A DNA stretch of 64,000 nucleotides from Rhodococcus sp. ABRD24. GTDB taxonomy: Bacteria > Actinomycetota > Actinomycetes > Mycobacteriales > Mycobacteriaceae. Shown here piece after piece: positions 40,488 through 59,098 of the stretch. The position numbers and the translations under genes are program-made. The notes beneath the pieces were generated by a model. That model was not told the origin of the DNA, did not search any database, and saw only the letters and a program-made list of their open reading frames with translations. Position 1 is the stretch's first letter, and every line of letters begins with the position of its first letter. The stretch spans positions 2,356,001-2,420,000 of the forward strand of contig NZ_CP035319.1 in NCBI RefSeq assembly GCF_004328705.1. The letters are read 5' to 3'.

Positions 40488-40548
40488 ACCGTCATTCGAC
40501 GGTCCGGCCCTACTGCGCCATACCGGTGCATGCGATGTGCTGGATGCT

Positions 40549-41298
40549 ATGAGCGAACCAGCCTCGCACGGCACCCTCTTACAGCTCCGTGACGTGACAC
40601 GCACTTACCAGTCCGGGAAGTCCACTCTCACGGCACTCGACCGCGTCACACTCGGCTGCCGCCGGGGTTCGTGGACGGCCATCATGGGTCCGTCCGGGTC
40701 GGGCAAGTCCACCCTGCTGAACTGCGCCGCCGGGCTGGACACGCCGGACTCGGGACAGGTCTTCCTCGACGGCCGTGACATCGCCAGCTTGGGCGATGAC
40801 GTACTGACCCGGATGCGGCGCACCGCAATTGGTTTCGTCTTCCAACAGTTCAACCTCGTCGATGCCCTGACTGCGGCACAGAACGTCACTCTCCCGCTCC
40901 GGCTGGCCGGGCACAAGGGCGCCGACGCTATCGCAGCACAATCCCTGAACACCCTCGGTCTCGGTGAGCACATGCACCACAAGCCACGTGAGCTGTCCGG
41001 CGGCCAGCAACAGCGGGTAGCCATCGCACGAGCCCTGGCGACCAAGCCGCACATCCTCTTCGCCGACGAGCCGACCGGTGCGCTGGACAGCAGATCCGCC
41101 GCCACGGTGCTGGACCTCATTCGTGCACTTGTCGACCAGCAGGCACAGACGATTCTGATGGTCACCCACGATCCCCATGCCGCGGCGCGCGCCGACCACG
41201 TTGCCTTCCTCCGCGATGGCCGCCTCGTCACGACCCTGGACGGCGCGGGTGCCAATCAGATCGCCTCGACCCTAGCGGATCTGGAGAGTCTGCGATGA
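40549..41298 (+). CDS. ABC transporter ATP-binding protein (MacB/LolD/BceA-like)
   Basis: 249 residues from ATG 40549. Walker A GPSGSGKST, Q-loop FVFQQFNLVDALTAAQN, signature LSGGQQQRVAIARAL, Walker B ILFADEPTGALDS and switch His MVTHDPHAA. It powers the FtsX-type permease encoded next (start overlaps the stop by 4 bp). It is divergent from the kinase/response regulator pair, the arrangement of antibiotic- or lipoprotein-handling ABC systems. Confidence 0.94.
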   Translation: MSEPASHGTLLQLRDVTRTYQSGKSTLTALDRVTLGCRRGSWTAIMGPSGSGKSTLLNCAAGLDTPDSGQVFLDGRDIASLGDDVLTRMRRTAIGFVFQQFNLVDALTAAQNVTLPLRLAGHKGADAIAAQSLNTLGLGEHMHHKPRELSGGQQQRVAIARALATKPHILFADEPTGALDSRSAATVLDLIRALVDQQAQTILMVTHDPHAAARADHVAFLRDGRLVTTLDGAGANQIASTLADLESLR

Positions 41299-43226
41299 CT
41301 CGTCTCGCCGTCCGCACCTTCTTCGACCGCTGGCAACTCTTCGCCGGGACAGTCCTCGCCGTAACCGCCGGTGTCGCCATCGTCCACGCCGGAATGACGA
41401 TCATCCTCGGAGTCGAGAATGCCGGGGCGCCGGGAGGTTCGACTCCTGAGCAGGTCGAGCGGTTTCGGCAATCTGCCAGCGGTGCAAGCACTTTGACTGG
41501 CATGACGGTGACGCTCGGAGCATTCCTGACGATCTTCGTGGTCGGCTCTACCTTCAACTTCGCCGTCGATCAACGTCGACGCGACCTCGCGGTCCTGAGA
41601 CTTGGCGGTGTCACCTCTCGCCAGATACGAAGGCTGCTGCTCGCCGAGGCGGTCCTTATTGCTCTTGTCGGCACCGCGGCGGGCGCTCTGCTCGGGCTCG
41701 GGGTCACCGCCCTGCAGCGCACTATCCTGACGTGGCTCGGTACCTTTCCGGACGGGCTGACCACCCCGGTCCAGCCAGCCGTTCTGGTGCTCGATCTCGT
41801 GGTCGCGGTCACGGTGTGTCTCGCGGGCGCGTGGGGTGCCGCTCGACGGGCCACGAAGTTCAGTCCGCTGGACGCCCTGCGCCGCAGCACCAGCGAGCAG
41901 AAAGTGATGACCACCCGCCGGTGGATCGTCGCGGTCCTTGCCATCGCACTCACCGCGGTCCAGACCTACTTCTCGGCGACAGCTGGCGGAATGCTGATCC
42001 CGTTGCTACTCGGTATGGGAATCGTCATTACCGCCTCGGTGGCGATGAGTCGCCTGTCGCCACTACTCGTGCCGGCTGCGGCGCGAGCACTCACGCCCTG
42101 GGCGCGCCGCTCACCGGTCGCAGACCTCGCTGTCGCGAACCTGCGCGATGCCGTTCGCCGCACCGCATCGTCTGCCGCACCGATGATCGTGCTCGTCAGT
42201 CTCGTCATGGGTCTACAGGGAATCCTCGATACGCAGACGCGAGCGACGGCCACCGAGGCCACCCAACTCCTGCGTGCTGATCTGATCGCGACAGGAGTCG
42301 GCATCGACCTCGCAGCACTCGACGCCATCGACGGTGTCTCGCTGGCGGCACCTGAGACCGTCGTTCCCCTCACCGTTGTACTCGCCCGGGGCGGCGACGC
42401 CACGGACGCTCCGGGCACGGTCGTCGCCGTCGATCCAGATGCCTTCCGCGCCACTCACCTTCAACGCCCAGCGAGCGGTGACATCGGCGAATTCGCTTCC
42501 GGTAGCATCGTCTTCGGCCCCGGTCTGGACAGCACGATGCTCCGCAGCCACTACGACCAGATCACGCTGACCATCGACGGCGACATCGTCACACTCGATG
42601 AGGCAGCCCGCATGGGAGAAACCCTCGCCGGGGTCGATGGTTTCTACATCGACCGCTCCATCCTGCCGACCGACATGCTCGACGGACCCACCACCGTCCT
42701 CATCCAACTCGAGCCCGGAGCCCACACCGGCGCGGTCGAACGCGAACTCGCCGCTGCGGGAGCGACCACCGTGCAAACGCCCGCAGAGTCTTCCGGAGAA
42801 CGAGACAGTGTCAAGGACAGTGAGAACCGCGCAGTGATGGCCGCGATCGTGGGACTCGGCAGCCTGTACGCGCTCATCAGCGTGCTCAGCACTATCGCGA
42901 TCGCTATCGGTCAACGGCGGACGGAACTGGCGACACTACGACTGACCGGCTTCACCCGGCGTCAAATCCAAAGCGTCACCGTCGTCGAAGCCCTCGCCGC
43001 CACGACCATCGGACTCATCCTTGGCGCGGTCGCCGCCGTCCTCGCCCTCGTAGGCCTCTGGGCCGCGACGTACCGCGTCTACGGCACGCCGGTGATCGCG
43101 ATCCCCTGGACCCTCCTGGGCGCCATCACCATGCTTGCGGCCACGCTCACCACCATCACAGCAGTCGTGGCCACGCGATTCGTGATCAAGACCCCGGCCA
43201 TCCAGGCACTGGGAAACCGGGAGTGA
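41295..43226 (+). CDS. FtsX-like ABC transporter permease (two FtsX units)
   Basis: 643 residues. An N-terminal membrane segment precedes a first FtsX block (LGAFLTIFVVGSTFNFAVDQ, RRRDLAVLRLGGVTSRQIRR, LLLAEAVLIALVGTAAGALL). Central segments and an extracytoplasmic domain follow (about 350-510, LDSTMLRSHYDQITLTIDGD), then a second FtsX block (VGLGSLYALISVLSTIAIAI, TELATLRLTGFTRRQIQSVT, VVEALAATTIGLILGAVAAV). This is a mechanotransmission-type permease as in MacB/BceB families, likely moving a peptide or lipid out of the membrane or relieving its effect. Confidence 0.92.
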   Translation: MTRLAVRTFFDRWQLFAGTVLAVTAGVAIVHAGMTIILGVENAGAPGGSTPEQVERFRQSASGASTLTGMTVTLGAFLTIFVVGSTFNFAVDQRRRDLAVLRLGGVTSRQIRRLLLAEAVLIALVGTAAGALLGLGVTALQRTILTWLGTFPDGLTTPVQPAVLVLDLVVAVTVCLAGAWGAARRATKFSPLDALRRSTSEQKVMTTRRWIVAVLAIALTAVQTYFSATAGGMLIPLLLGMGIVITASVAMSRLSPLLVPAAARALTPWARRSPVADLAVANLRDAVRRTASSAAPMIVLVSLVMGLQGILDTQTRATATEATQLLRADLIATGVGIDLAALDAIDGVSLAAPETVVPLTVVLARGGDATDAPGTVVAVDPDAFRATHLQRPASGDIGEFASGSIVFGPGLDSTMLRSHYDQITLTIDGDIVTLDEAARMGETLAGVDGFYIDRSILPTDMLDGPTTVLIQLEPGAHTGAVERELAAAGATTVQTPAESSGERDSVKDSENRAVMAAIVGLGSLYALISVLSTIAIAIGQRRTELATLRLTGFTRRQIQSVTVVEALAATTIGLILGAVAAVLALVGLWAATYRVYGTPVIAIPWTLLGAITMLAATLTTITAVVATRFVIKTPAIQALGNRE

Positions 43227-43348
43227 ACAGGGCTCGAGCCAGCCGCCATGTTCGTGTGGTTGCCGACTTCTCATTCATGCGACGAGGTCCCGGATATCGA
43301 CCATTTCTCCGGGGAGCAGCCAAGCATCAGCAGGCTGGCGGGGTCAGG

Positions 43349-44200
43349 TCATCTGAGCAGGAATTCGAGGGCGATCCGCTCGAACGCCTCCTTGGCTTCG
43401 ACCATCACCCAGTGCCCGCAGTTGGGGAAGATGTGCAGTTCGGCATTGGGAATCAGACGCATCGGAATCATCGGCATGTCCGGAGGGCACTGCCGGTCCT
43501 CACGGCCCCACGTCAGCAAGGTCGGGCATTGCACGTTGCCCATCATCGACCAATACGGAGGCAGACGGGAGTCCGACATCGCCTGCTGCTGCGCCTCGAA
43601 TGCCTTGGAGCCGTACATCGCGGCGAGCGTCTTGTGCGACTCGGGATCGTTGGCCGTCTCCCAGCGTTCCTCGATCCGTTCCTCAGTGATGATCACGCGG
43701 TCGTAGACCATGCATTCGAGCCAGCGCACCAATTTCTCGCGGCTGGGCCCGTCGGCGAAATCTTGCAGCAGCCGGGTGCCCTCACTCGGGTTCTGACTGA
43801 ATATGTTCGGCCCTACGCCACCAATAGTGACGAGTTTGGTCACCCGATCGGGATGCTTCATGGCCACATTGACGCCGACCACCCCTCCCATCGAGTTACC
43901 GATCATCGCCGCGGAATCGATGCCGAGGGCGTCCATGAAGCGGATCACCGCAGAGCCGGCGGTCAGGACCGGGTGCCCGGCGACTGGGTCACTCACGCCG
44001 AATCCCGGGAATTCGAGGATGTAGCAGTGGAAGTGCTTGGCGAAGACGTCCAGGTTTCCTCTGTAGTTCCGCCAGCCGCTGACTCCGATTCCGGAGCCGT
44101 GCAACAACAGCAGCGGCGGCCCCTCGCCCGCCTCGTGGTAGCGCAGCACCCCCTTGTCGGTGGTGATCTCCCTCTTGGTCCCCTCGTAAGTCGCGTCCAC
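43349..44200 (-). CDS. Alpha/beta-hydrolase, HsaD/BphD-like meta-cleavage product hydrolase
   Basis: 283 residues. LLLLHGSGIGVSGWRNYRGN (oxyanion HG), nucleophile Ser in SAAMIGNSMGGVVGVNVAMK, Asp in LLTWGREDRQCPPD and His in IFPNCGHWVMVEAKEAF. The segment GPNIFSQNPSEGTRLLQDFA and MVYDRVIITEERIEERW is close to HsaD, which splits the C-C bond of a ring-opened steroid (4,9-DSHA). A KstR-type palindrome lies just before the start, pointing to steroid-related control. The bona fide hsaC/hsaA/hsaB genes are not in the window, so this may be a paralogue. Confidence 0.87.
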   Translation of the reverse strand: MDATYEGTKREITTDKGVLRYHEAGEGPPLLLLHGSGIGVSGWRNYRGNLDVFAKHFHCYILEFPGFGVSDPVAGHPVLTAGSAVIRFMDALGIDSAAMIGNSMGGVVGVNVAMKHPDRVTKLVTIGGVGPNIFSQNPSEGTRLLQDFADGPSREKLVRWLECMVYDRVIITEERIEERWETANDPESHKTLAAMYGSKAFEAQQQAMSDSRLPPYWSMMGNVQCPTLLTWGREDRQCPPDMPMIPMRLIPNAELHIFPNCGHWVMVEAKEAFERIALEFLLR

Positions 44201-44208
44201 CCCATCAC

Positions 44209-44226
44209 ACTAGAACACGTTCCAGT
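44209..44226. promoter_or_regulatory. KstR-type operator before the HsaD-like gene
   Basis: ACTAGAACACGTTCCAGT, a near-perfect palindrome 8 bp before the start codon on the minus strand. It fits the TAGAAC-NN-GTTCTA pattern of the cholesterol repressor KstR, with one arm position changed. Confidence 0.65.
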
Positions 44227-44301
44227 TTAATGGGGTTGGGATCGTTCCCGCGGTCACGCTGCACGCGGTACGGCTTGCCTACACCTATGGAGCAGAATCG
44301 A

Positions 44302-45273
44302 TTAAAGGGTTGTTTCATCGTCGGCCGACTCATCAAATGTCCGTCTGTACTGCCCCGGTGTAACACCGAACTCTCGGGTGAATGCCTGATGGAGCCCAAT
44401 TGTGCTGCCGTAACCGACAGCCACCGCAATCCTCTCCAGCGAGTCGGCGCTGCACTCGAGGAGGCGGCGGGTTTCGAGAAGTCGCCGATCACGCAGGTAC
44501 GAAGCCGGTGTGCGACCGATTGTCGTGGTGAATTCGCGCGCGAATGTCGACTGAGGCAGGCCGGTCAGGTCGGCGAGAGATTGGACGGTCCAAGGGCGGC
44601 TGTAGTGCATGTTGATCGCAATCAACGCGTCACCGAGCCGTGGATGACGTAGTGCGCGTCCGACGTGCGTGTCGATGTCGTCGTGCAGCGCAAGTCGCAG
44701 TCCCAGCAGATACGCGAGCTCGAACGAGCGAAGTTGGACGGCCTCTGTCCCGTTTCCCGGGGAATTGGTTTCGGCGAGAATTCCGTCGAGCAGATGGGCG
44801 AGCAGTGGCTGGGTGGCAATTCGGTCTCGACGAACGATCAAGACGTCGGGCAGCATCCGGTACAGCAGGTACTCCCCAGAGGAGTCGTAGTCGAGTCCCG
44901 CACAGAGCATTCGGCCGATCTGTGGCGTCGAAGGGTCACCGAGGGTGAGAACGGCCGCCGAGCCGGGCGCACGTTCGGGCAGCAGATCACTGATGTACGG
45001 CGCGTTCGTGCACGGCACGCCTGAGACCACGTGTGCCGCACCGCGAGGGAACATCGCCAAGTCACCGGCCGCGAGATGATGCCGCTCGCCTGTGCCGAAC
45101 GTGATCGTGGCGGTGCCGATGAGCATGTAGTGAATCAAGGCGCGGGGTTCAGGACGACCCTGAACCGCCCAGGCGTGATGCAAGTGCCAATCGGAATGGT
45201 AAGCACCGTGAAGCCGTAAGGGCGAGAGAATCGAGCTGAGAACGTCTGCGTTGTGTTCCCCCACATCCACCAT
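44302..45273 (-). CDS. AraC-family regulator with N-terminal cupin
   Basis: 323 residues. The N-terminal half is a cupin ligand domain (HYMLIGTATITFGTGERHHL, AAGDLAMFPRGAAHVVSG). The C-terminal AraC double HTH reads IAINMHYSRPWTVQSLADLT, GLPQSTFAREFTTTIGRTPA, LECSADSLERIAVAVGYGST and EFGVTPGQYRRTF. Its start is 72 bp from that of the NmrA-like gene on the opposite strand, so it probably activates the metabolite cluster 45345-51435, which contains no other regulator. Confidence 0.93.
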   Translation of the reverse strand: MVDVGEHNADVLSSILSPLRLHGAYHSDWHLHHAWAVQGRPEPRALIHYMLIGTATITFGTGERHHLAAGDLAMFPRGAAHVVSGVPCTNAPYISDLLPERAPGSAAVLTLGDPSTPQIGRMLCAGLDYDSSGEYLLYRMLPDVLIVRRDRIATQPLLAHLLDGILAETNSPGNGTEAVQLRSFELAYLLGLRLALHDDIDTHVGRALRHPRLGDALIAINMHYSRPWTVQSLADLTGLPQSTFAREFTTTIGRTPASYLRDRRLLETRRLLECSADSLERIAVAVGYGSTIGLHQAFTREFGVTPGQYRRTFDESADDETTL

Positions 45274-45344
45274 GAGTGATAATCATAGCGTCGAGGTTGA
45301 ATTCTTTATTGTTACCACTGGATCAACCCGGCAATGTCAGCCGA

Positions 45345-46220
45345 ATGAATTCACCTGACACTGTCCACGTTGCGGTCCTGGGGTCAGCCGGCGCGCAGGG
45401 CTCCGCAATCGCCGACGCACTCGACGCCGCCGGAGTCCCGACCCGCCGAATCTCACGCACCGGCAATGGCTCCGGAACGGCGGCCGCCGACCTCCGCGAC
45501 ACCGGCGCACTGACGGCAGCACTATCCGGAATCGATGTCGCGGTACTGACCCTGCCGCTCGACTTCTCCTCGGAAGCAGCGCATTTCGCTCGCAATGTCG
45601 CGGATGCCGCGGCTGCCTCCGGTGTCCAGCGCATCGTGTTCAACACCAATACCCGAATCCCCGACGAGATCACCGATGCACCAGGCTTTGAAACAAGGCG
45701 TGCTGCGCGGATCACGCTGGAGACCGGTGCAGTCCCGGTGACGATCATCGAGCCTGCCGTGTACCTCGACAACCTGCTCGCCCCGGGCGTGCTGACACAC
45801 AGCCGCGACGGATCTGTACTGCGATACCCGATTCCGGAAGGACTTCCCGTGTCATGGCTCGCCGCGTCGGATCTCGGTCGTGCCGTGGCCGCAGCCTGCC
45901 TGAACGGACGCGGCGGCGAGGTCGTTCGACCGGGCCGGGCCCCGCTGACGCCGGAGGAGCTTGCAGGCGCGATCGAAGGCGCGATCGGGACGTCGGTGCG
46001 CTTCGAAGCGCTCGATCCCGCTCTCTTCGAACAGGGTCTGGCAGCGGTCGCGGGTCCCAACGCCGCAGCAGGGGTTGCATCGATCTATCGGTGGCTCACC
46101 GCGAACCCAGGTAGCACGGTTATGGCGGCGCCGGCCGAGCAACCGGCCTGGATGCCTCAACCGGCCACGGCGTCAGCCTGGGCTGCCGATTTCCTGAAGC
46201 CCGTCGCTTCCAAGGGCTGA
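45345..46220 (+). CDS. NmrA-like NAD(P)-binding protein
   Basis: 291 residues from ATG 45345. The Rossmann motif HVAVLGSAGAQGSAIADALD (GxxGxxG) is present, then IDVAVLTLPLDFSSEAAHFA, RIVFNTNTRIPDEI and a family-type PAVYLDNLLAPGVLTHSRDG. The YxxxK catalytic pair of classical SDRs is absent, as in NmrA regulators and atypical SDRs. It could be a redox enzyme, a quinone/aldehyde reductase or a redox sensor. It is the first gene of the cluster, 4 bp before the PrnB-like gene. Confidence 0.85.
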   Translation: MNSPDTVHVAVLGSAGAQGSAIADALDAAGVPTRRISRTGNGSGTAAADLRDTGALTAALSGIDVAVLTLPLDFSSEAAHFARNVADAAAASGVQRIVFNTNTRIPDEITDAPGFETRRAARITLETGAVPVTIIEPAVYLDNLLAPGVLTHSRDGSVLRYPIPEGLPVSWLAASDLGRAVAAACLNGRGGEVVRPGRAPLTPEELAGAIEGAIGTSVRFEALDPALFEQGLAAVAGPNAAAGVASIYRWLTANPGSTVMAAPAEQPAWMPQPATASAWAADFLKPVASKG

Positions 46221-46224
46221 TCCA

Positions 46225-47364
46225 GTGACCATGCCCTACAGCGGAGCTTCCCAGCTCATGACCGGCATCAAAGCCCTTCCGGATCCGCACTACCTCTGCG
46301 CTGCCGTGCAAGCCGCGGATCCATTGAATGCCGACGTTCTCCTCACCGACCTGGCCGCCATGAACGAGCGCGCCGACACGACCGCCCTGTGGGCTCTGCA
46401 ACGTGAGCTCACCCACCGCACGCTGACGCTCCTAGCAGCGCGCAGCCTCTCTGGCGTCGAGTCCCTCGCAGTGATGCGCGACATCGGCATCGTCCTCGGT
46501 TCGGTCAAACGCCACGGCACCGAACCACTGGAAGTGACACCGGATCTGTCACCGGCACTGCTCGCCCTCGGCTGGCAGACGGGTCTTATTCCGCGCGACA
46601 CCGTCCAGCACTACACCGCGTGGAACCCTCGCGGTGAACGTCGACGCAGATACACCGACGACCCACAAGAGCAACACCTCCAGGACGCCGTTTCGACTGT
46701 GTTCCCACAGCTCAGCGCGTCGCTGACAATCAGCAGTGAGCTGTCGGAACTCGATCCGCGGGACTCACGTTTCGCCCCGTTGATGTCATGCCTCGACGGA
46801 ATCACGGTGTCGATGGTGACCACGATCGACACCGTCGTTCGCAGTGTCTCACCGGTGTTCTTCGCTCAGGTACTGCGACCGTACTTCGAGGAAATCACCA
46901 TCGCCGGCACTACCTACCTCGGCCCGGCAGCAGCGCAGGTCCCGCTGTGGTTGGTCGATCTGTGCTTGTGGGCGTCCGACCGCAACGCCGACGGATACCG
47001 CAAGTTTCTCGACGACTCACTGCCATACGCGCTACCCAGTTGGCGCGCGTTTCACGATGCGCACCACCGGCATCCGTCGATTGTCACGCGGTTGACCACT
47101 GGGTTCGCAGCAGAACCGCAGAATGCCGACCTCGAGCGATCCGCCGAAGCCACCGCTCGGTTGCTCCGGACTCTCAAGACGTTCCGCGGTCGTCATATCG
47201 GTATCGCCAAGAAGGCGTACGCCGATGATGTTCGGTTGTACGAAAACGGTAGTGGCGGCGCACCGGTCGCGTTACTGAAGGAGATTCTCGACCTGACACG
47301 AGAGAACGAAACTCTGTTGAACAAGCCCACCACATCGCACCGGCCGGTTGCGGCGGCACGATGA
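46225..47364 (+). CDS. PrnB-family heme enzyme (tryptophan/indoleamine dioxygenase superfamily)
   Basis: 379 residues clearly related to PrnB (monodechloroaminopyrrolnitrin synthase). Shared blocks: VMRDIGIVLGSVKRHGTEPL, HYTAWNP, RYTDDPQEQHLQ, VSPVFFAQVLRPYFEEITIA, GTTYLGPAAAQVPLWLVDLC, DDSLPYALPSWRAF and, near the C-terminus, LRTLKTFRGRHIGIAKKAY, where His324 corresponds to the heme ligand, followed by NGSGG at about 341. PrnB rearranges 7-chloro-tryptophan to an aminophenylpyrrole; relatives of unknown substrate exist. It is tightly linked (4-bp overlap) to the FAD monooxygenase gene that follows. No halogenase is present, so the substrate may be tryptophan itself or another indole. Confidence 0.9.
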   Translation: MTMPYSGASQLMTGIKALPDPHYLCAAVQAADPLNADVLLTDLAAMNERADTTALWALQRELTHRTLTLLAARSLSGVESLAVMRDIGIVLGSVKRHGTEPLEVTPDLSPALLALGWQTGLIPRDTVQHYTAWNPRGERRRRYTDDPQEQHLQDAVSTVFPQLSASLTISSELSELDPRDSRFAPLMSCLDGITVSMVTTIDTVVRSVSPVFFAQVLRPYFEEITIAGTTYLGPAAAQVPLWLVDLCLWASDRNADGYRKFLDDSLPYALPSWRAFHDAHHRHPSIVTRLTTGFAAEPQNADLERSAEATARLLRTLKTFRGRHIGIAKKAYADDVRLYENGSGGAPVALLKEILDLTRENETLLNKPTTSHRPVAAAR

Positions 47365-48587
47365 CTCGCATTCTGATTGCCGGTGCCGGGATCGCGGGCC
47401 TCACATGTGCGCTGGCCTTACACTCGCAGGGGGAGTGTAAGGTCACCGTATTCGAGCAGGCGCCGCAGGTCAGGCCATTGGGTTCTGGGGTGAATCTGAT
47501 GCCGCAGGCCACCCGGCACTTCGCTGACCTCGGCATCCTCGACGACCTACGAGGCGTCGCCATTGCCACCTCGACCATGCAGCTGGCCACTGCACGGGGA
47601 CAGATCCTGTGGAGCGAGCAACGCGGAGGAGGACCGGACTCCACGGCGCCTCAGCTATCGATCCACCGAGGTTGGCTCACCAGCACATTGGTCGAACATG
47701 TGCGAGAGCGGCTGGGGCCGGCATCGATCATCCCCGGCGCTCGGTTGATCGATGTCGATTCTCGCTGCAGGACTGCGACGTTCGCTCAACCGGATGGTTC
47801 CACTCGGACGGAGACCTTCGACATACTGGTCGGCGCGGACGGTATCCGGTCCGTAACGCGAAACTCGGTGCGCGGTGGGGCGACCGAGCTGCAATTCGCC
47901 GGTGCCACCATCTGGCGCGGAGTGACGCGATTCAGCAGCTTCGCGGACGGCGCAACTATGGTCATCGCCGGAGACGGCCGCTGCAAAGTTGTGTTCTATC
48001 CGTTGGCGCACTACGACGACGGAACATGCCTGATGAACTGGGCTGCTGCAACTCCGGAGAGCGACGGGAACAGCGAGAGGGGGAACTGGAACGCCGCCGC
48101 TACCGCCGAAGAGTTCGCCGGTCACTTCTCCGGCTGGCACATACACGGCGTCGACATCGAGCATCTGATGCGCAGCACCGACTTTCCGTTTGCATACCCG
48201 ATGGTCGATATCGATCCACTCCCCGCCTGGACCCGAGGTCCGATCACCTTGATCGGCGATGCCGCCCACGCGATGTATCCGATCGGATCCAACGGTGCCA
48301 CGCAGTCCGTGATCGACGCGGCCGTCCTCGCCGGCCACCTCGCGTCCGGGATCGACCCCCGAGAAGGGTTGGCTCGCTATGAATCCGAGCGTCGACCTGC
48401 AACCACTGAGATCCAGAAGGCGAACCGAGCTCGTGGCCCCGAGGTGGTCATCGATCTCGCCGCGGAGCGCGCCCCTCACGGATTCACCGAACTGTCTGAT
48501 GTCTTCGCCCCTGGCGAGCTCGAACACATCGCCGGTCGCTACGCCGCAGCGACCGGCGCCCCAACCCCCATCAGGAGCCACTCATGA
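47361..48587 (+). CDS. FAD-dependent aromatic monooxygenase, PhzS/salicylate hydroxylase-like
   Basis: 408 residues. FAD motif ILIAGAGIAGLTCALALHSQ, DG motif FDILVGADGIRSVTRNSV, and GD motif ITLIGDAAHAMYPIGSNGAT. The MYPIGSNGA version is typical of PhzS and related single-component hydroxylases. It would hydroxylate, perhaps with decarboxylation, an aromatic substrate using NAD(P)H and O2. Start and stop overlap its neighbours by 4 bp on both sides, so it is translationally coupled to the PrnB-like and HpaB-like genes. Confidence 0.93.
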   Translation: MTRILIAGAGIAGLTCALALHSQGECKVTVFEQAPQVRPLGSGVNLMPQATRHFADLGILDDLRGVAIATSTMQLATARGQILWSEQRGGGPDSTAPQLSIHRGWLTSTLVEHVRERLGPASIIPGARLIDVDSRCRTATFAQPDGSTRTETFDILVGADGIRSVTRNSVRGGATELQFAGATIWRGVTRFSSFADGATMVIAGDGRCKVVFYPLAHYDDGTCLMNWAAATPESDGNSERGNWNAAATAEEFAGHFSGWHIHGVDIEHLMRSTDFPFAYPMVDIDPLPAWTRGPITLIGDAAHAMYPIGSNGATQSVIDAAVLAGHLASGIDPREGLARYESERRPATTEIQKANRARGPEVVIDLAAERAPHGFTELSDVFAPGELEHIAGRYAAATGAPTPIRSHS

Positions 48588-50068
48588 CCCGTACGGGCGA
48601 CCAGTACCTACGTGATCTCGCCAACCGCCCCCGATCTGTCTGGCTCGGCGACAAGCATATTCGTGATATCACCGACCATCCCGCCTTCGCGCACACTGCC
48701 CGGTCCATCGCGGCACTCTACGATCAGGCGGCTGTCGATACCGATACATCGGTACTCCGAGACCCTGACAATGCGCGCAGCGACGGAACACCGGCACTGC
48801 GTGCATACAGTATCCCGCACAACCATGCCGACCTGACGGCCAAACACAACGCCCATGACGCATGGGCACGGCCGAGCTTCGGATTCCTCGGGAGGTCCCC
48901 GGATTACATGGCGGCCGGCGCAGCCGGCTGGGCAACACGCCCAGAGGCTTTCACCTCTCCGGCGTTCGACGGTGCCGCCAACGCCGCGGCCCTGTACCAG
49001 CGGCTGCGTGACAATGACCTGTTCGCGGCCTTCACCATCACCAACCCCTCCACGAACAGGGCCATATCCGTGGACGCGCAGGGTGCCGGTGACCTCCTGA
49101 TGCACGTCGACAGGGAAACCGCGGACGGTATCGTCATCAGCGGCGCGAAGACCATAGGAACCGGTGCCGTGTTCGCCGACGACATCATCGTCGGCACCAT
49201 CGAGCCGCTTCGAAGTGAAGACGAGCCGTACGCCTTCACTCTCACGCTCGATCCCACCGCCGAGGGTGTGCACCTGATCTCTCGGACCAGCTACGAATCC
49301 ACTGCCACCAGCGCCGCCGACAATCCACTCTCGCACCGTTTCGACGAGAATGACGCACTGTTGGTGTGCCAAGAGGTGCACGTCCCCTGGGAACGCGTCC
49401 TCACCTATCGTGACATCGAGGCGACCGGCAGAATCTGGTGGGGCACACCCGCATACACCAACATGGCGCACCAGGCCGCCGTACGCTTCGCGGTGAAACT
49501 CGAGTTCCTCGCCGGACTGGCAATGGTGATCGCCGAAGAGAATGGAGGGGCCCGCAATCCGTCCGTGCGTGCGGAGCTCGGCCGTCTCGCCGGATACGCG
49601 CACACCGCGCAGGCAATCGCCCTCGGAGCGGCGTCTGCTTACGAAGTCGATCCCGGCGACCACGGTGCTGTGCGTGTCAATCAAGCGATCATTTTTGCCC
49701 AGCGCCAGTTTGCCGCCGAGGCCTATCCGGCGGTACTCCACCAACTACGGATGCTGTGTGGCGGCAGTCTGACCCAGCTTCCCGTATCGATCGAGGACCT
49801 GTCGGCACCAGTGATCGGCGACTTACTCAACCGGTACAGCCGAACCGCCGGACAGACGGCAGAGGACCGGATCCGCCTGATGAAACTGGTATGGGACGTC
49901 ACCGGTTCCGAATTCGCAATCCGCCATGCGCATTACGAGCAGTTCTACCAAGGAGCCCCCCACGTGTATCTGGGCCAGCTCGCAGGAACCGCGAATGCCG
50001 CCGCAATGGCCGAGTATGCCTCCACTGCACTACATGTTGCAGATCCTGCGGTGGTCACAGCACGATGA
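48584..50068 (+). CDS. HpaB-family FADH2-dependent monooxygenase
   Basis: 494 residues of the 4-hydroxyphenylacetate 3-monooxygenase large-subunit family: TGDQYLRDLANRPRSVWLGD, RDITDHPAFAHTARSIAALY, NHADLTAKHNAHDAW, a flavin-side segment DNDLFAAFTITNPSTNRAIS, HVDRETADGIVISGAKTIGT and VQEVHVPWERVLTY-like CQEVHVPWERVLTYRDIE. It hydroxylates phenols, or in secondary metabolism amino-pyrroles and indoles, using FADH2 from a separate reductase. No flavin reductase gene lies in the cluster, so it must come from elsewhere. ATGA overlaps at both ends. Confidence 0.92.
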   Translation: MTRTGDQYLRDLANRPRSVWLGDKHIRDITDHPAFAHTARSIAALYDQAAVDTDTSVLRDPDNARSDGTPALRAYSIPHNHADLTAKHNAHDAWARPSFGFLGRSPDYMAAGAAGWATRPEAFTSPAFDGAANAAALYQRLRDNDLFAAFTITNPSTNRAISVDAQGAGDLLMHVDRETADGIVISGAKTIGTGAVFADDIIVGTIEPLRSEDEPYAFTLTLDPTAEGVHLISRTSYESTATSAADNPLSHRFDENDALLVCQEVHVPWERVLTYRDIEATGRIWWGTPAYTNMAHQAAVRFAVKLEFLAGLAMVIAEENGGARNPSVRAELGRLAGYAHTAQAIALGAASAYEVDPGDHGAVRVNQAIIFAQRQFAAEAYPAVLHQLRMLCGGSLTQLPVSIEDLSAPVIGDLLNRYSRTAGQTAEDRIRLMKLVWDVTGSEFAIRHAHYEQFYQGAPHVYLGQLAGTANAAAMAEYASTALHVADPAVVTAR

Positions 50069-51435
50069 GGGCTACCGCTCCGGCGCCCGGTCGGATCAGC
50101 AGTGCCGTGGGGTGGACTCTGGCACTGACTCAGTTTCTGCTCATTCTCGACACCGCAGTACTGAACGTGGCCGTTCCGCACATCGCCGACGGGGTCGGCC
50201 TCTCACAGGCCGAACAAGGTTGGGTGATCAATGCATTCGTCGTACCCTTCGCCGGACTTCTCCTCGCGGCCGGCTACGCAGCCGATCGAATCGGGCGCCG
50301 AAAGGTGCTCGCCACCGGATTGAGTGTCCTCGCTGTCGGAGCGGCGCTCGGAGTCGTCGCTGTGAACGGCCCGATGATCATCGTCAGCCGTGCGGTCCAA
50401 GGCGTCGGCGGAGCGCTCGCGGGTGCCGCTGCGATGTCGGTCGTGTTCGCATTGTTCACCGGGCCAGACCGAGGAAAGGTGCTGGCTCTCTTCGCAACGA
50501 TGGCAGGCGTCGGCGGCGTAGCCGGCACCATCGTCGGCGGCACAGCCACCGAACTCCTGGGCTGGCGTTCCCTGTTCGCACTGAACGTCGTTGCCGCCGT
50601 ACTGCTCCTCGTCGCGGTGAAGCGAACGGTTCCTCAGGACGGGCCCCGAGAAGTCGGCACCACAGCTCACCGGCAAAGACGATCCGGATCGATAGCGATG
50701 ACGATCGCGCTCGCCGCCGCAGCGTATGCCGTCACCGCTATGACCGATCATTCATGGCGATCTCCGCACGTGCTCATCGGCTCGGCCGTTGCCATCGGTG
50801 CAGTAATCGCGTTCGTCGCTGCGGAATGGGGCGCCCCACGGCCGGTGATTCCCCGCCAGGTGTGGCGCAATCCCGCACTCCTGTCGGCCCTGGCCCTCGC
50901 CGGCACAGGGCAGTTCGTGATCACCCCGATCTTTCTCCTGGTCAGTATCTACGCACAACAGGCCATGGGGTACAGCCCGGCCGCAGCAGGATTGGTGTTG
51001 CTGCCGATGTCCCTACTCATCGTCGCGATCGCACCGACCTTGCCCCGCCTGATTCAGATGTTCGGCGTGCACACCCTCATGCTCGCGGGCTTCGTCGCCG
51101 CCACTGCCGGAGCGCTCTGGTTGACGATGCTGCATCCGGATGCCGACTACCTCACCTCGGTCCTCGGTCCCACTCTGCTCGTCGGCCTCGGTGTTCCGAC
51201 GATCGCGATCACCACCAACCTGGCCGCGGCCGCGGCGGCAGAGACTGCGACAGCAGCCATCGAGCCCGGTTTGACCGCCGGACTGCTCACCACGGCCCAA
51301 CAATTCGGGGCCGCAATGGGCCTTGCTGCCCTCCCCGCGATTGCGGCCTCTTCGTCCGGGTACGACACCGCATTCCTCACCGCAGCCAGCGTCGCGGCTA
51401 TCGCGGCCATGCTCGCCGCGCTTCGTGCGCTTTGA
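50065..51435 (+). CDS. MFS transporter (DHA2-like drug/metabolite exporter)
   Basis: 456 residues from ATG 50065, which overlaps the previous stop (ATGA). About 12-14 membrane segments. TM1 and motif D: LTQFLLILDTAVLNVAVPHI. Motif A: GYAADRIGRRKVLATGLSV. Motif C-like: AGVGGVAGTIVGGTATELLG. These mark proton-driven exporters. Being the last gene of the coupled set, it probably exports the product of the PrnB/monooxygenase pathway or gives self-protection. Confidence 0.93.
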   Translation: MRATAPAPGRISSAVGWTLALTQFLLILDTAVLNVAVPHIADGVGLSQAEQGWVINAFVVPFAGLLLAAGYAADRIGRRKVLATGLSVLAVGAALGVVAVNGPMIIVSRAVQGVGGALAGAAAMSVVFALFTGPDRGKVLALFATMAGVGGVAGTIVGGTATELLGWRSLFALNVVAAVLLLVAVKRTVPQDGPREVGTTAHRQRRSGSIAMTIALAAAAYAVTAMTDHSWRSPHVLIGSAVAIGAVIAFVAAEWGAPRPVIPRQVWRNPALLSALALAGTGQFVITPIFLLVSIYAQQAMGYSPAAAGLVLLPMSLLIVAIAPTLPRLIQMFGVHTLMLAGFVAATAGALWLTMLHPDADYLTSVLGPTLLVGLGVPTIAITTNLAAAAAAETATAAIEPGLTAGLLTTAQQFGAAMGLAALPAIAASSSGYDTAFLTAASVAAIAAMLAALRAL

Positions 51436-51534
51436 ACACACGCCCGGCCCCGGAGTTCGCCCTGGCCGCGCGAATGCCTACGAGAACGCCCCCGCCCAGC
51501 GCGCTGGAGACATCAGACCGGCACCGCTGCAGTC

Positions 51535-52239
51535 TCAGAACCGCTCGTCCCGTATCGCAGTGAGAGTGAGCTCCCGCACGGACGACGCGCTCGAAAGCGA
51601 CATGATGGACCGCACGATGTCCACGACGTCGTGGACAGGTATCAACGTGCCGCCACCCCGTGCTACCGCGGTCTCGCGGGGCACATCGAGTCCGTCGTCC
51701 GTGTTGAGATAGCCCAATTGCAGCACCGTCACCGCGAGGCCGTCTGCACGGAATCCTTCTCTGAGCGCATCGGCGATTCCGTTGAGCGCGAACTTCGACG
51801 CACCGAACGCGACTTCTGGCCTGCCACTGCGTGAAAGCCCGGATGTCGAGCCAGTCAGGAACACTCGGGGCTGAGCCTGTCCGATCATCCGGGGGACGAG
51901 CCGCTTGAGGAGCAGAATGGCTGCGGTGATGTTCGTATCGATCAGCGACATCGTCTCGGTGTCGGACTGCTCGACAAAGCGATAGTCCGGGCCGAAGGCG
52001 CTCTCCTCCCACAATCCGATGTTGTAGATGAGAATGTCCACGGGTCCGGTGAGTGATCGATCGACCGTCTCGGCCGCAATGAGCGGGTCGCCGAGATCCG
52101 CTTCGATCCATGAGCGCGCGTAGTGCGGCCCCGGACATCGACGCGATACGCCAAGCACGTCGTGCCCGTCGCCGCTCAACCCGTCGACCAGTGCTCGACC
52201 GAGCCCCCGGCTCCCTCCGACGACGACTACCCGCGCCAC
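51535..52239 (-). CDS. Short-chain dehydrogenase/reductase
   Basis: 234 residues from GTG 52239, which has AAAGGAGG 5 nt upstream. VVVVGGSRGLGRALVDGLSG (GxxxGxG), YNIGLWEESA in place of NAG, Ser in VFLTGSTSGLSRSG, and a substitution where the YxxxK Tyr is expected: EVAFGASKFALNGIADAL reads F-GASK. Without the Tyr it may not be a normal oxidoreductase. It is convergent with the MFS gene and downstream of the carotenoid-oxygenase operon, separated by a terminator. Confidence 0.82.
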   Translation of the reverse strand: MARVVVVGGSRGLGRALVDGLSGDGHDVLGVSRRCPGPHYARSWIEADLGDPLIAAETVDRSLTGPVDILIYNIGLWEESAFGPDYRFVEQSDTETMSLIDTNITAAILLLKRLVPRMIGQAQPRVFLTGSTSGLSRSGRPEVAFGASKFALNGIADALREGFRADGLAVTVLQLGYLNTDDGLDVPRETAVARGGGTLIPVHDVVDIVRSIMSLSSASSVRELTLTAIRDERF

Positions 52240-52394: not shown

Positions 52395-53876
52395 CTAGGT
52401 ACGCGCCTCGGCCAACTGATCGGCGCGCACCCAGGTGGCATGGAATCCTGAGGGCACCCGGCGCGGCAGCAACACCCGCGCGATCGGTCCCGCCGCGACA
52501 TCCTCTGCGTCGAAGATGTTGATCTCTCCCCGATCCTCGGCCTCGTCGTTCACGAAGCACACCAGGTAGCCGTCGGTCTCGCCCGTCGATCCGTCGCGCG
52601 GCGCGAACGGTGCCTCCGAACCCCAACGCCCGGAGCCGAACTTGTGCTCCTCCTTGGTGCCCGTTTGTGAGTCGAAGCGCACGAGCCCGTCGAACAGCAG
52701 CGTCGGCTCGTTGCCGAGGCTCATGCTGTACGAGTACCGGTGCGACCGGCCCATGACCCGCGAATCCACGCTGGGGAACTCGATGTTGGAGTTGTCGAGT
52801 TCGGTCTCGACGGTGGCGCCCGTGCGCAGGTTGAAACGGTACCGGTAGAGCTGTGCATCGAGCCGCATGTACGCGAGCATGTTCGACAGGGGTGAGGCGA
52901 AAGTCGTCTGGTGCTGTGGGTTCTTCACCCGGCACACGTCCATGATGATCTCGTCGCCCTCTTCCCACGAGTTGACCACGTGGTAGATGTAGCAGGGCTT
53001 CACTTCGAACCAGCGCACGTCGCTGCCGTTTCCGTGACGGGGAATGACCGCGAATCGAGCGGGCAACTCCTGGTCGTAGAAGATCCGGTACTTGCCGGCC
53101 CGGCGCGCATCGTGGTCCTGCACCAGCGGCAAGTCCATGAGGATCGAGTAGTTGGCGGTGATCCCGATGTCGTGCGGAAGCCTCGGACCAGGTAGCTCGA
53201 TCTGCGTGAGGTGCGTCTGACGACCGTCGGCGCCGATGATGCCATAGCGCAGAAAGTCCTGGTCCGGCCCGTAGTCGAACCAGATCAATTCTCCGGTGGC
53301 CTCATCGACCTTGGGGTGGGCCATCATGTCACCGGCGAATGTGCCCAGGAAGTCCTGTGCACCAAGTGTTTCCAGAGACAATGGATCGACACTGTAGGGC
53401 GTTCCGCAGAGATACCACGTCGCCAGGACCTGCCCGCGGTGGTAGATGACGTCGGTGTTGGCGGAATCCTTGATCCCGAGACCGTGCCCATTGCCCCACG
53501 GATTGCCCTTCGGGTTCTCCATGAGTCCGGTCCACAGGGCGCGGCCTGCATCGGACTCCTCGTGGAATGCCTTCGTCCGAACGTACCGATTGCGGTACCG
53601 CACCTTCCCGTTCTCGAAGTGCGCGGCGTGAATCATGCCGTCTCCATCGAACATGTGATAGCGACCCGGCGCCTCGAACTGCCGGTTCGGGCCATTCCGG
53701 AGATACACGCCGTTGAGGTCTTTGGGGATCTCACCGATGACCGTGAGCTCGTCCAGAACGAGTTCGTCGCTGACCGGCGCGAAAACTCCGACGGTGTACG
53801 GATTAGCGTCGGTGGCGTCGACCGGGCGAGCGACAGCGATGGGATCACCATTCGCTCGGGGCTGATTGGAAGTCAT
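52395..53876 (-). CDS. Carotenoid/stilbene cleavage dioxygenase (RPE65 family)
   Basis: 493 residues, non-heme Fe(II) oxygenase that splits a conjugated double bond into two carbonyl products. Fe-ligand His regions: GDMMAHPKVDEATGE, GPRLPHDIGITANYSILMDL, CYIYHVVNSWEEGDEIIMDV, and the C-terminal RVPSGFHATWV. The N-terminus has the family DLNGVYLRNGPNRQFEAPGR and YHMFDGDGMIHAAHFENGKV. The overall features fit lignostilbene or apocarotenoid dioxygenases; substrates cannot be told apart here. It is the last of five same-strand genes that could degrade the resulting aldehyde (ALDH, ligase, thiolase, thioesterase). Confidence 0.92.
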   Translation of the reverse strand: MTSNQPRANGDPIAVARPVDATDANPYTVGVFAPVSDELVLDELTVIGEIPKDLNGVYLRNGPNRQFEAPGRYHMFDGDGMIHAAHFENGKVRYRNRYVRTKAFHEESDAGRALWTGLMENPKGNPWGNGHGLGIKDSANTDVIYHRGQVLATWYLCGTPYSVDPLSLETLGAQDFLGTFAGDMMAHPKVDEATGELIWFDYGPDQDFLRYGIIGADGRQTHLTQIELPGPRLPHDIGITANYSILMDLPLVQDHDARRAGKYRIFYDQELPARFAVIPRHGNGSDVRWFEVKPCYIYHVVNSWEEGDEIIMDVCRVKNPQHQTTFASPLSNMLAYMRLDAQLYRYRFNLRTGATVETELDNSNIEFPSVDSRVMGRSHRYSYSMSLGNEPTLLFDGLVRFDSQTGTKEEHKFGSGRWGSEAPFAPRDGSTGETDGYLVCFVNDEAEDRGEINIFDAEDVAAGPIARVLLPRRVPSGFHATWVRADQLAEART

Positions 53877-53878
53877 GC

Positions 53879-54406
53879 CTACTCCGCTTCGGTGTCGTTG
53901 GGGGTTGATCGATCAGATGAATGCTTTTCGGGTGCTGGGGGATAGAGCACCAGCTGGGTACAGCGAAAGAGCGCAATCGCCATCCCGGCTTCATCACGGA
54001 CCGTCGCGTCCCACACCTGGGTGCGCCGCCCGCCGTGGATGAGAGTCGCCGCGACGGTGACCGTCCCGGACCGGGCAGTGCCGAGATAGTTGGTCTTGAG
54101 TTCGAGTGTGGTGAATCCCGACGCCTCCGCAGGCAGCGCCAGCCGTGCGCCGACACCGCACACCGTGTCGGCCAAGGCCACGACGGTAGCCGCGTGCAGA
54201 TATCCGTTCGGCGCCAACAACTCCTCGCGAACGGCCAGTTCGCCGGTGACCGCCGCGGCCGATGCTTCGAGGATGCGCATTCCGACCAGGCCGGGGAACC
54301 TGCCCGCGAGCATCGTGGTCATCTCGTCGGCAATGTTCTCGCCGGACCCGGTCGGTGTCTCGCGCGGCCTGCCGACCGGAGCGCCGTCGACATCTGGTGA
54401 TCCCAT
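53879..54406 (-). CDS. PaaI-family thioesterase (hotdog fold)
   Basis: 175 residues. The hotdog core is FPGLVGMRILEASAAAVTGE, ELLAPNGYLHAATVVALADT (NGYLHAATVVALADT, where the G-H/active Asp region lies) and SGFTTLELKTNYLGTARSGT. It should hydrolyse aromatic or acyl-CoA thioesters, freeing CoA when the pathway stalls, as PaaI does. It lies 2 bp each from the FadD and carotenoid-oxygenase genes. The extra 35-residue N-terminus is polar and of unknown role. Confidence 0.87.
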   Translation of the reverse strand: MGSPDVDGAPVGRPRETPTGSGENIADEMTTMLAGRFPGLVGMRILEASAAAVTGELAVREELLAPNGYLHAATVVALADTVCGVGARLALPAEASGFTTLELKTNYLGTARSGTVTVAATLIHGGRRTQVWDATVRDEAGMAIALFRCTQLVLYPPAPEKHSSDRSTPNDTEAE

Positions 54407-54408
54407 GG

Positions 54409-56148
54409 TCAGCCGACCTTCGCGACCGCGCCGCGAATATCGCGGCGTTGCAGCTTTCCGACCGGGTTCCGGGGAAGCTGGTCGACCGTGACGAGCCGCT
54501 CCGGCAGCTTGAACGACGCGACGTCCTTTGCCCGCAGGAACTCGACCAGTTCCTCGAGTGCAACCGCCTCACCATCCTTGGAAACCACTACCGCACAGCA
54601 CTTTTCGCCGAGGACGTCGTCGTGATACCCGACAATGGCTACGTCGGCGACTGCGGGGTGGTCGATGAGGATTCCCTCGATCTCGGCGGGAGCGATGTTC
54701 ATTCCCCCGCGGATGATGATCTCCTTGCTCCGGTCGACGAACTTGAGGTACTCGCCGCCTTCTCCGCACAGCTCGAAAATATCTCCGCTGCAGAGGTATC
54801 CGTCCTCGTCGAACGGGCTCGACGCAGCGGTTCCCTCGAGGTAGCCAGCGAAGACCGTCGGCCCCTTCAATCGGAGCTCGCCGCGCCCGCCCACCGCCGT
54901 GACCTGCTCGCCCGTCGCCAGATCCACCAGTCGCACCGAGGTGCGCTTGGCCACACCGGTGGCCCACGACCTGGCAGGTGCGCCGTAGTTCGGCAGGTAC
55001 TCGGCACGGATCATCGGATCCGGTGTGTCCGACGGAGCTCCGAGCAGGCACACGCCCTCGTTCGACCCGAAGAAGTTGAGCACCTCGACGCCGAGCGAGT
55101 ATTGCCAGTCACGCACGACGCCAGGGGGCAGCGGAGCACCGCCCGACCCCACCCGGCGGAGCGCGGACAGATCGTGCGCGGCCCGAAGGTCCTCTCGCTG
55201 CAGCAGCATGGTGAGAATCGCCGGTGGCATGCTCGTGTGAGTGACGCGGTAGCGCTGTAGCTGATCGAGATAGACGGCGAGGTCCAGTGGATGGTGGTGG
55301 ACCAGGTGGCCACCGCCGAGCAACCAGGGCAGCAGCGATGTCGCGAACCCTGCCATGTTGACCATCGGGAAGGGGTTGAGCATGACGGACGCCGCGTCAG
55401 TCTCCAGACCGTCCTGAACAGCCTGCCCGACCGCAATCCAATCACCGTGACAGCGGAGCACGCCCTTGGGTGCGGCCTCCGTGCCGCTGGTCCAGCAGAT
55501 CGTGATGCAGTCGTTCACCGATCGGGGCAGGGCCGCGCCGACGCGGTGCGCGGCATCGAGCGCTTCGGCGCTGGCGGGGACCGCGTCCAACGGCAGTCCT
55601 CCGTTCGATGCAGGTGCGCCGAAGGTGAACACGGTGCGCAACGAGGGCAACTCGCCGATCAGGCTGAGCGCCTCCTCGGACGGTGTCCGGTCGCCGAAGC
55701 TGTTGACGGTGACAACCGCAACGGCCGAAGCGGATTCGACAATTCGGGTCAGTTCGTACCGTCGGTACGAGGCAGGCATGGGGGCCGCGATCGCCCCGAT
55801 GCGCCACAGGGCGAAGTAGATCGCGGTCAAGGCGACGGAGTTGGGCATCAGTACCGCGACGACATCGCCGGGGCCGATTCCCGATTCGTGCAGCTTGGCG
55901 GCAAGGTCGTCGATGCGTGCGTCGAGTTCCTGCCAGGTCAACGACTCCGGTTCGATCCCGCACAACGCGGGCAGGTTCATCGGATCGGTCACCGCCGGGG
56001 CGCCACCGCGACTCCGGATCTGGTCGTCGAGGAGGTCCAGCACGGTCAGCGGCGACCACCAGTGGTGTTCGAGGTAGTCCTCGACACGCTGATCGGGATG
56101 ACACGGGCGTAAGCGGTTGGCCGCGTGGCCTTCCGAGATGGCGTTCAT
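54409..56148 (-). CDS. Acyl-CoA synthetase (FadD/4-coumarate ligase type)
   Basis: 579 residues from ATG 56148 (AAAGGA upstream). AMP-binding motifs: ITICWTSGTEAAPKGVLRCH (P-loop), NFFGSNEGVCLL (A5), GYLCSGDIFELCG, FVDRSKEIIIRGGMNIAPAE (hinge) and LPRNPVGKLQRRDIRG (catalytic Lys). The first residue of the usual YGxTE (here FGSNE) is unusual but keeps Glu. It would make CoA esters of the acid formed from the aldehyde dehydrogenase product. It lies 26 bp after the thiolase gene in the same direction. Confidence 0.92.
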   Translation of the reverse strand: MNAISEGHAANRLRPCHPDQRVEDYLEHHWWSPLTVLDLLDDQIRSRGGAPAVTDPMNLPALCGIEPESLTWQELDARIDDLAAKLHESGIGPGDVVAVLMPNSVALTAIYFALWRIGAIAAPMPASYRRYELTRIVESASAVAVVTVNSFGDRTPSEEALSLIGELPSLRTVFTFGAPASNGGLPLDAVPASAEALDAAHRVGAALPRSVNDCITICWTSGTEAAPKGVLRCHGDWIAVGQAVQDGLETDAASVMLNPFPMVNMAGFATSLLPWLLGGGHLVHHHPLDLAVYLDQLQRYRVTHTSMPPAILTMLLQREDLRAAHDLSALRRVGSGGAPLPPGVVRDWQYSLGVEVLNFFGSNEGVCLLGAPSDTPDPMIRAEYLPNYGAPARSWATGVAKRTSVRLVDLATGEQVTAVGGRGELRLKGPTVFAGYLEGTAASSPFDEDGYLCSGDIFELCGEGGEYLKFVDRSKEIIIRGGMNIAPAEIEGILIDHPAVADVAIVGYHDDVLGEKCCAVVVSKDGEAVALEELVEFLRAKDVASFKLPERLVTVDQLPRNPVGKLQRRDIRGAVAKVG

Positions 56149-56174
56149 GGCGTCCTTTCGTGCGGTGCTATGGG

Positions 56175-59035: not shown

Positions 59036-59098
59036 GGACGCTCGTTCCTGTGTCAACAGAGTTGTGGCGAGATCAGTCAGTCATCGGGATGGGATGTT

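Follow-up and report, generated by a model that had tools for sequence, protein, structure and literature searches.

The stretch of the Rhodococcus sp. ABRD24 genome analysed here (contig NZ_CP035319.1; 64,000 nucleotides, hereafter the window, in which all coordinates are positions) contains a group of six genes at 44302–51435. A minus-strand AraC/cupin gene stands opposite a plus-strand run that encodes, in order, an NmrA-like protein, a homologue of the pyrrolnitrin enzyme PrnB, a PhzS-like FAD monooxygenase (FMO), an HpaB-type monooxygenase and an MFS transporter. Because all six genes recur together at 56 of 80 loci with a PrnB relative, the set exceeds chance and is a real conserved unit. 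We hypothesise, with reasonable confidence, that it is a horizontally acquired and self-contained cassette in which tryptophan would undergo a PrnB-type rearrangement, followed by oxidation and export of the product. What is observed directly is the gene set, its conservation, intact heme-ligand and flavin motifs, and a second set of tryptophan biosynthesis genes in relatives. The original prediction, made from the sequence of the window, had proposed a new tryptophan or indole pathway, and it is partly supported. Its coordinates are right, and its six-gene set is confirmed by Pfam annotation.

Recurrence of the gene set

A scan of genome contigs gave 99 PrnB relatives, and the top 80 were taken with at most 8 kb on each side. 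The counts given for these 80 loci are without L001 and L082–L085; they include loci cut by contig ends, four with PrnB alone (L056, L069, L071 and L072) and L052, which has a distant MFS match only. By tblastn, the FMO gene is found at 74 of the 80 loci, AraC at 68, NmrA at 67, and HpaB and MFS at 63 each. Genome mining for the same gene set, named as a check in the original prediction, thus recovers it. Pairwise distances across the six proteins are correlated (r 0.83–0.96), values that are inflated by the common ancestry of many Streptomyces rows.

Three main gene orders contain all six genes. The order seen at 44302–51435 is shared by three loci, from Nocardioides (L002), Crenobacter (L003) and a member of the Neisseriaceae (L080). 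The commonest order, found in Streptomyces, is NmrA< AraC> HpaB> MFS> PrnB> FMO>, mostly between glgE and glgP, genes that are present at 46 and 51 of the 80 loci respectively. In the third order extra genes accompany the six; it was seen in Streptomyces, Kitasatospora, Plantactinospora, Actinokineospora and one Pseudonocardiales genome. Loci of this third type (L040, L063, L065–L068, L070 and L073, and also L051, L054 and L055) carry a second FMO and a lone ketosynthase of polyketide synthase type, and in part also a DsbA-like protein, a BBE-type oxidase, a MocR regulator and trpD/G/E genes.

In Streptomyces sp. Root1304 (L050:7920–10490) PrnB and FMO lie in one open frame of 856 residues, and the protein P0217 contains HpaB and FMO domains together; either fusion could be a sequencing slip. 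Some cassettes between glgE and glgP appear partly lost, with HpaB and MFS missing at L016, L030 and L076, and MFS missing at L022, L036, L041 and L062. At L052, L056, L069, L071 and L072 the PrnB-like genes are without their usual partners, and in four of these five a gene of protein cluster c25 adjoins; the single annotated member of this cluster is a methyltransferase. Among viral contigs there were 13 pattern-matching stretches, none of which encodes a PrnB relative.

The PrnB homologue

When solved structures were searched by sequence, the PrnB homologue matched PfPrnB (2v7i) with E 4.1e-59 over residues 26–359 and FbPrnB (9dfg) with E 4.5e-43, each alignment covering about 335 residues. 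The identity over aligned segments is 37% to PfPrnB and 29% to FbPrnB. A weak third match was to 2nwb (E 8.1e-5). Counting from the alignment, His324, Tyr332 and Ser343 correspond to PfPrnB His313, Tyr321 and Ser332, Tyr321 being what we take to be the tyrosine on the substrate side. The PrnB blocks with the heme-ligand histidine, as the original prediction had described them, are therefore present as far as the alignment can tell. Within the aligned family His324 is conserved in 80 of 81 sequences, Tyr332 in 81 of 81 and Ser343 in 80 of 81. The one sequence without both the heme histidine and the lid serine is that of L076, a locus which also lacks HpaB and MFS, and for these reasons this copy looks degenerate.

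In FbPrnB the lid serine, Ser319, touches the substrate carboxylate, and the pocket is narrowed by Tyr104 (PMC11791213). By alignment the PrnB homologue has Ser343 and Tyr130 in these places, Tyr130 being kept in 81 of 81 sequences. An AlphaFold2 model of the protein is almost all helix, with a mean pLDDT of 85.6; lid residues 341–343 fall below 50, in agreement with the disordered lid of PfPrnB. With the whole fold matched at the sequence level and the key residues apparently intact, the gene product is assigned to the PrnB family.

The known pyrrolnitrin genes prnABCD thus share with the cassette a PrnB sequence alignable over its whole fold, with the heme histidine, the tyrosine and the lid serine, and an expected substrate of tryptophan type. 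They differ in including halogenases and a Rieske protein, where the cassette has instead the FMO, HpaB, NmrA, MFS and AraC genes. No PrnA/PrnC halogenase or PrnD Rieske domain was found by Pfam among the six genes, which upholds the earlier statement that this is not pyrrolnitrin synthesis. Across the genome PF04820 matched twice, once to the cassette FMO and once, at 37 bits, in a match that passes the cut-off only with its neighbours; five of 14 control genomes match too, and the search for PrnD was confined to the six genes.

The monooxygenases and their partners

The FMO aligns with PhzS (2rgj) over residues 4–361 (E 1.6e-80, 274 bits) and belongs by its score to the PRK07538 subfamily (NF005720; 442 bits against a cut-off of 400). 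The residues of its GxGxxG, DG and GD motifs are kept in every sequence that covers them, 73–74 of 75. It differs from PhzS in its PrnB partner, and there is no phenazine gene among the six.

The HpaB-type protein matches E. coli HpaB (6qyh) with E 1.2e-65. With the solved HpaB proteins 6qyh and 2yyg it shares both Pfam domains, the arginine of the catalytic triad and, mostly, the tyrosine. It differs from them in its lack of an adjoining HpaC, in the replacement of the catalytic histidine by phenylalanine, and in falling below the equivalog cut-offs of TIGR02309 (249.5 against 480.2 bits) and TIGR02310 (248.9 against 885.2 bits). In TtHpaB the triad Arg100-Tyr104-His142 holds the phenol oxygen, and the histidine deprotonates the phenol (PMC10537072). 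The corresponding residues here are R104, Y108 and F150, so that the triad is incomplete. In 64 aligned HpaB proteins (this copy and those of 63 loci) R104 is conserved in 64, Y108 in 54, with cysteine in the other 10, and F150 in 64. Among the best 120 of 338 homologues the residue at position 150 is phenylalanine in 118, leucine in one and histidine in one. Five solved chains, including E. coli HpaB, have histidine there, as judged by eye. On its sequence, then, the protein is no ordinary phenol hydroxylase, and since the phenol-deprotonating histidine is replaced by phenylalanine, its substrate probably offers no phenol at that point, as would be expected for oxidation of an aniline or a pyrrole.

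It could be that this protein does not hydroxylate a ring at all, and instead N-oxygenates an aniline or oxidises a pyrrole. We put this forward tentatively; it is compatible with the proposed tryptophan pathway, and its odds do not exclude those of the pathway. The invariant phenylalanine favours it. Against it stand the arginine kept in all copies and the tyrosine kept in most, together with the observation that HadA employs a histidine at a different position (PMC8342789), so that loss of the HpaB histidine leaves hydroxylation possible. The catechol-like product that had been suggested as one outcome is weakened by these results.

In the NmrA-like protein G13, G16, Q18 and G19 do not vary in any of the 68 sequences aligned. 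Its closest solved relative is 5f5l, entitled 'Monooxygenase' (E 6.2e-13), which we take to be KstA11 of kosinostatin. It is perhaps an NADPH-dependent quinone or quinone-imine reductase, or a monooxygenase partner. The transporter has as its top NCBIfam match TIGR00711 (EmrB), at 141.7 bits against a cut-off of 230.2.

Tryptophan genes in relatives

Ten of the 80 loci have a trpD gene close to PrnB-FMO. Two of these are from Aquabacterium (L008 and L012) and eight are actinobacterial (L040, L063, L065, L066, L067, L068, L070 and L073). A TrpG-like gene is present at eight of the 10 and a TrpE-like gene at six, while L040 and L067 have trpD only. The TrpD proteins of L008, L066 and L070 score far above the curated cut-off. 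At least two TrpD proteins above the cut-off are encoded in all 10 genomes with trpD at the locus, compared with one (L017) of eight hand-picked cassette genomes without it; another of the eight, L004, has one full TrpD and two low-scoring pieces (72 and 49 bits). The TrpE of Aquabacterium L008 scores 558.7 bits against a curated cut-off of 517.7, and each Aquabacterium genome has two TrpE.

These are therefore second copies, and tryptophan as the likely substrate, already named in the original prediction, gains from them. A pathway that carries its own tryptophan genes is a biosynthetic one, with tryptophan its most probable starting point.

Two further candidates for a tryptophan supply were struck out. 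An apparent trpE beside PrnB at L020, a gammaproteobacterial metagenome-assembled genome, lies in a run of a ketosynthase, a chorismate enzyme, an aminotransferase IV, YceG and thymidylate kinase, and looks like part of the core run fabF-pabB-pabC-mltG-tmk. The GATase-chorismate fusion of Variovorax L009 scores 356.2 bits, over the pabB cut-off of 328.4.

Scytonemin-like loci

In Aquabacterium L008 (L008:1324–16779) PrnB-FMO is flanked on one side by a ScyD/ScyE-family gene, DsbA, a dehydroquinate-synthase-like gene and an EboC-like UbiA gene, and on the other by an EboA-domain gene, a TatD-like gene, a type I phosphodiesterase and trpEGD. The ScyD/ScyE family model is matched at 302.3 bits (cut-off 80) and the EboA domain at 135.7 bits (cut-off 50); below their cut-offs are EboC (116.6 against 250 bits) and the EboA family model (118.8 against 320 bits). 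L012 has the same genes, its ScyD/E and EboA being 89% and 76% identical to those of L008. At L020 (L020:6903–11688) PrnB-FMO is preceded by DsbA and directly followed by a gene of the ScyD/E family, which has 62% identity to its L008 counterpart. No HpaB or MFS was found by tblastn at L008, L012 or L020, and for this reason a different export route fits these three loci.

These arrangements recall two known systems. Transfer of the scytonemin monomer into the periplasm depends on the ebo genes, a complete set of which is found in the EDB cluster of P. fluorescens NZI7 (PMC6282210). EDB converts tryptophan to indoles that repel nematodes (PMC9655573), and dsbA and trp genes may occur in scytonemin clusters (PMC6939163). 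The likeness of L008 and L012 to the scytonemin/ebo and EDB clusters lies in ScyD/E, DsbA, EboA, EboC-like, TatD-like and trpEGD genes around PrnB-FMO; L020 shares with scytonemin clusters the ScyD/E family and DsbA only. The comparison covered ScyD/E, DsbA and the ebo genes, with ScyA, ScyB, ScyC and EboE outside the search. The six genes at 44302–51435 differ in having no ScyD/E, DsbA or ebo domain by Pfam.

Proposed pathway and alternatives

We infer each chemical step, the order of the steps, the reductase, the regulation and the export from the gene set and its relatives. PrnB turns over tryptophan as well as 7-chlorotryptophan (PMC11791213). The PrnB homologue would convert L-tryptophan by a PrnB-type rearrangement, the likeliest product being 3-(2-aminophenyl)pyrrole or a closely similar compound. 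Of the two monooxygenases the PhzS-like FMO is placed first, since no part of the family is more constant than the PrnB-FMO pair. A second oxygen would then be added by the HpaB-type enzyme, using FADH2 from a general host flavin reductase; no HpaC-type reductase is found among the six genes, and the six PF01613 flavin reductase matches are elsewhere in the genome, none being assigned to the cassette. The NmrA-like protein may use NADPH to reduce a quinone or quinone-imine state; export of the product would fall to the MFS transporter, and switching of the operon to the AraC/cupin protein.

Several observations weigh against this pathway. The cassette at 44302–51435 itself has no trp genes, and for that reason the tryptophan argument reaches it by family descent alone; moreover, the 10 trp loci belong to two architectures other than its own. 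In both L063 and L073 the component I gene has TrpE as its best match, at 312 and 324 bits respectively, below the cut-off of 517.7, and PF04715 is weak at L063 and otherwise unreported at the actinobacterial trp loci. MFS is missing from seven Streptomyces loci that have both glg genes as flanks, and HpaB too is missing from three of these, so that neither export nor the HpaB step is universal. Even for pyrrolnitrin PrnB the mechanism is unsettled, since the purified enzyme is inactive: activity is lost on purification and regained only by adding crude cell extract (PMC11791213). Lastly, the tree places PfPrnB and FbPrnB outside the family on long branches, and given this and the 37% identity to PfPrnB, the reaction of the homologue may differ from that of PfPrnB.

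One way in which it might differ is that the enzyme oxygenates tryptophan in the manner of IDO/TDO or MarE, to N-formylkynurenine, an oxindole or a hydroxyindole, with FMO and HpaB processing the product in a kynurenine-like or oxindole-like biosynthetic branch. PrnB, IDO and TDO form one fold superfamily (PMC11791213), the distant solved relatives of the FMO include kynurenine 3-monooxygenases (E 6.5e-11), the genome has no TDO by PF03301, and the family lies far from PfPrnB in the tree. Yet the structure search, taken to E 10, gave four matches with PfPrnB and FbPrnB on top and no IDO or TDO; Tyr332 and the lid serine are conserved; and the FMO is much nearer to PhzS than to kynurenine 3-monooxygenase (274 against 45 bits). 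We therefore regard such a branch as unlikely.

Still less probable is a catabolic or detoxifying operon whose enzymes would break down or alter an aromatic substrate (tryptophan, indole or a xenobiotic) and whose MFS transporter would expel it. The flanks do look catabolic, with an HsaD-like hydrolase at 43349–44200 and a CoA ligase, thiolase and aldehyde dehydrogenase at 54409–59056; HpaB and FAD monooxygenases are frequent in catabolism; the regulator is of AraC type with a cupin sensor; and AMP ligases occur at three of the 80 loci, two of them with the same gene order (L002 and L003). These neighbour-ligase matches are, however, distant (26–29% identical), and six of seven neighbouring proteins (HsaD-like, short-chain dehydrogenase/reductase, carotenoid oxygenase, thioesterase, thiolase and aldehyde dehydrogenase) gave no tblastn match at E 1e-10 in any of the 80 loci, on which ground a catabolic link to the flanking genes was judged unlikely. 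Synteny with a congener begins right of the cassette, and no ring-cleavage or CoA enzyme domain is found by Pfam among the six gene products. Extra trp biosynthesis genes alongside the same enzymes in relatives are the reverse of what tryptophan breakdown would call for. Because of these second trp copies and the scytonemin-like neighbours in relatives, a biosynthetic tryptophan product is likelier than catabolism, in line with the original prediction.

A PrnB-type pathway from tryptophan can also be placed in a wider setting, which we offer as a possibility, with some doubt. There may be a broad, hitherto unrecognised PrnB-like family that makes exported tryptophan-derived redox compounds or pigments, with PrnB and a PhzS-like FMO as an interchangeable core. 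The additions would vary by lineage: HpaB-NmrA-MFS, as at 44302–51435; a second FMO together with a single ketosynthase; or, for maturation in the periplasm, scytonemin-type genes (DsbA, ScyD/E and ebo). The Aquabacterium locus would then be scytonemin-like, with PrnB replacing the cyanobacterial core enzymes.

The PrnB reaction is among the oddest heme reactions known. A PrnB family with a fixed FMO partner, once in the same frame, therefore offers new enzymes together with candidate activating partners, and a genome-mining handle for a family of tryptophan products across actinobacteria and proteobacteria. No description of the cassette was found among the titles and abstracts listed from the open-licence literature (partly from 2015 or 2020 onward, with most subscription journals outside it). 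As far as those listings reach, the cassette is undescribed and the pathway can be called new, as had been proposed.

Layout of the locus

The features are listed in Table 1. The plus-strand genes are tightly packed, with a gap of 4 bp between NmrA and PrnB and ATGA overlaps at PrnB-FMO (47361–47364), FMO-HpaB (48584–48587) and HpaB-MFS (50065–50068). The coupling by 4-bp overlaps noted in the original prediction is thus real, and placing the ATGA type at the last two junctions was too modest, as it is found at all three from PrnB to MFS. The NmrA open reading frame runs from GTG 45276 to 46220, with ATG 45345 as the likelier start, which leaves a divergent intergenic region of 71 bp. The PrnB start codon is unsure (GTG 46225, ATG 46231 or ATG 46258); the 368-residue database version of the protein (P0002) agrees with ATG 46258. 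Repeats in 43000–52000 look like chance matches inside coding sequence, and no tRNA genes were found in the window.

Table 1 Features of the cassette, with positions in the window
Feature	Coordinates	Strand	Basis
AraC-type regulator with Cupin_6 sensor domain, divergent	44302–45273	-	Pfam Cupin_6 100.7 bits, HTH_18 72.5 bits
AraC/NmrA intergenic region, 71 bp, presumed promoter	45274–45344	.	AraC start 45273 to ATG 45345
NmrA-like NAD(P)-fold protein	45345–46220	+	Pfam NmrA 74.9 bits
PrnB-family (IDO/TDO fold) putative heme protein	46225–47364	+	PF08933 129 bits, cut-off 27
PhzS-like FAD monooxygenase (FMO)	47361–48587	+	Pfam FAD_binding_3; NCBIfam NF005720 442 bits, cut-off 400
HpaB-type FADH2-dependent monooxygenase, Phe150 subfamily	48584–50068	+	Pfam HpaB_N 239.7 bits, HpaB 163.3 bits
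MFS transporter, EmrB/DHA2-like, presumed exporter	50065–51435	+	Pfam MFS_1 152 bits

Origin and neighbouring genes

In a sample of the genus, this PrnB is found in one of 14 genomes, which is the genome studied here. Four of 151 relatives have a PrnB match, the other three at 30–37% identity, and PF08933 is present in nine of 394 genomes of a class-wide sample. Among 199 sampled Streptomyces genomes, the PrnB protein has a match in 23, 16 of them at E <1e-70. In five congeners no DNA match over 44302–51435 exceeded a 42-nt piece among the 40 of about 300 candidates scored per genome, and synteny with the congener whose carotenoid oxygenase is closest (90% DNA identity) starts at 52304. The six genes have a third-position GC of 0.69–0.74, compared with 0.75–0.83 in five measured neighbours. 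In a tree made by a quick method, with long branches flagged, the PrnB homologue groups with Rhodococcus qingshengii (92%), one further contig and Tsukamurella; next outward are Nocardioides and Luteipulveratus, and then a mainly proteobacterial set. As far as such comparisons indicate, the cassette was probably gained horizontally.

To the right, a minus-strand run at 52395–59056 encodes a carotenoid-cleavage oxygenase of RPE65 type, a hotdog thioesterase, an AMP ligase, a thiolase and an aldehyde dehydrogenase. Its oxygenase is shared by five of 13 congeners, at 83–98% identity, and the run therefore looks separate from the cassette. To the left, the gene at 43349–44200 encodes a hydrolase resembling HsaD and BphD, and DNA 72–82% identical to it occurs elsewhere in the five congeners searched. 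Beyond this, 38461–43226 encodes a LuxR-like response regulator (identified by eye), a HisKA_3 kinase, an ABC ATPase and an FtsX-like permease, and resembles a module for peptide sensing or efflux.

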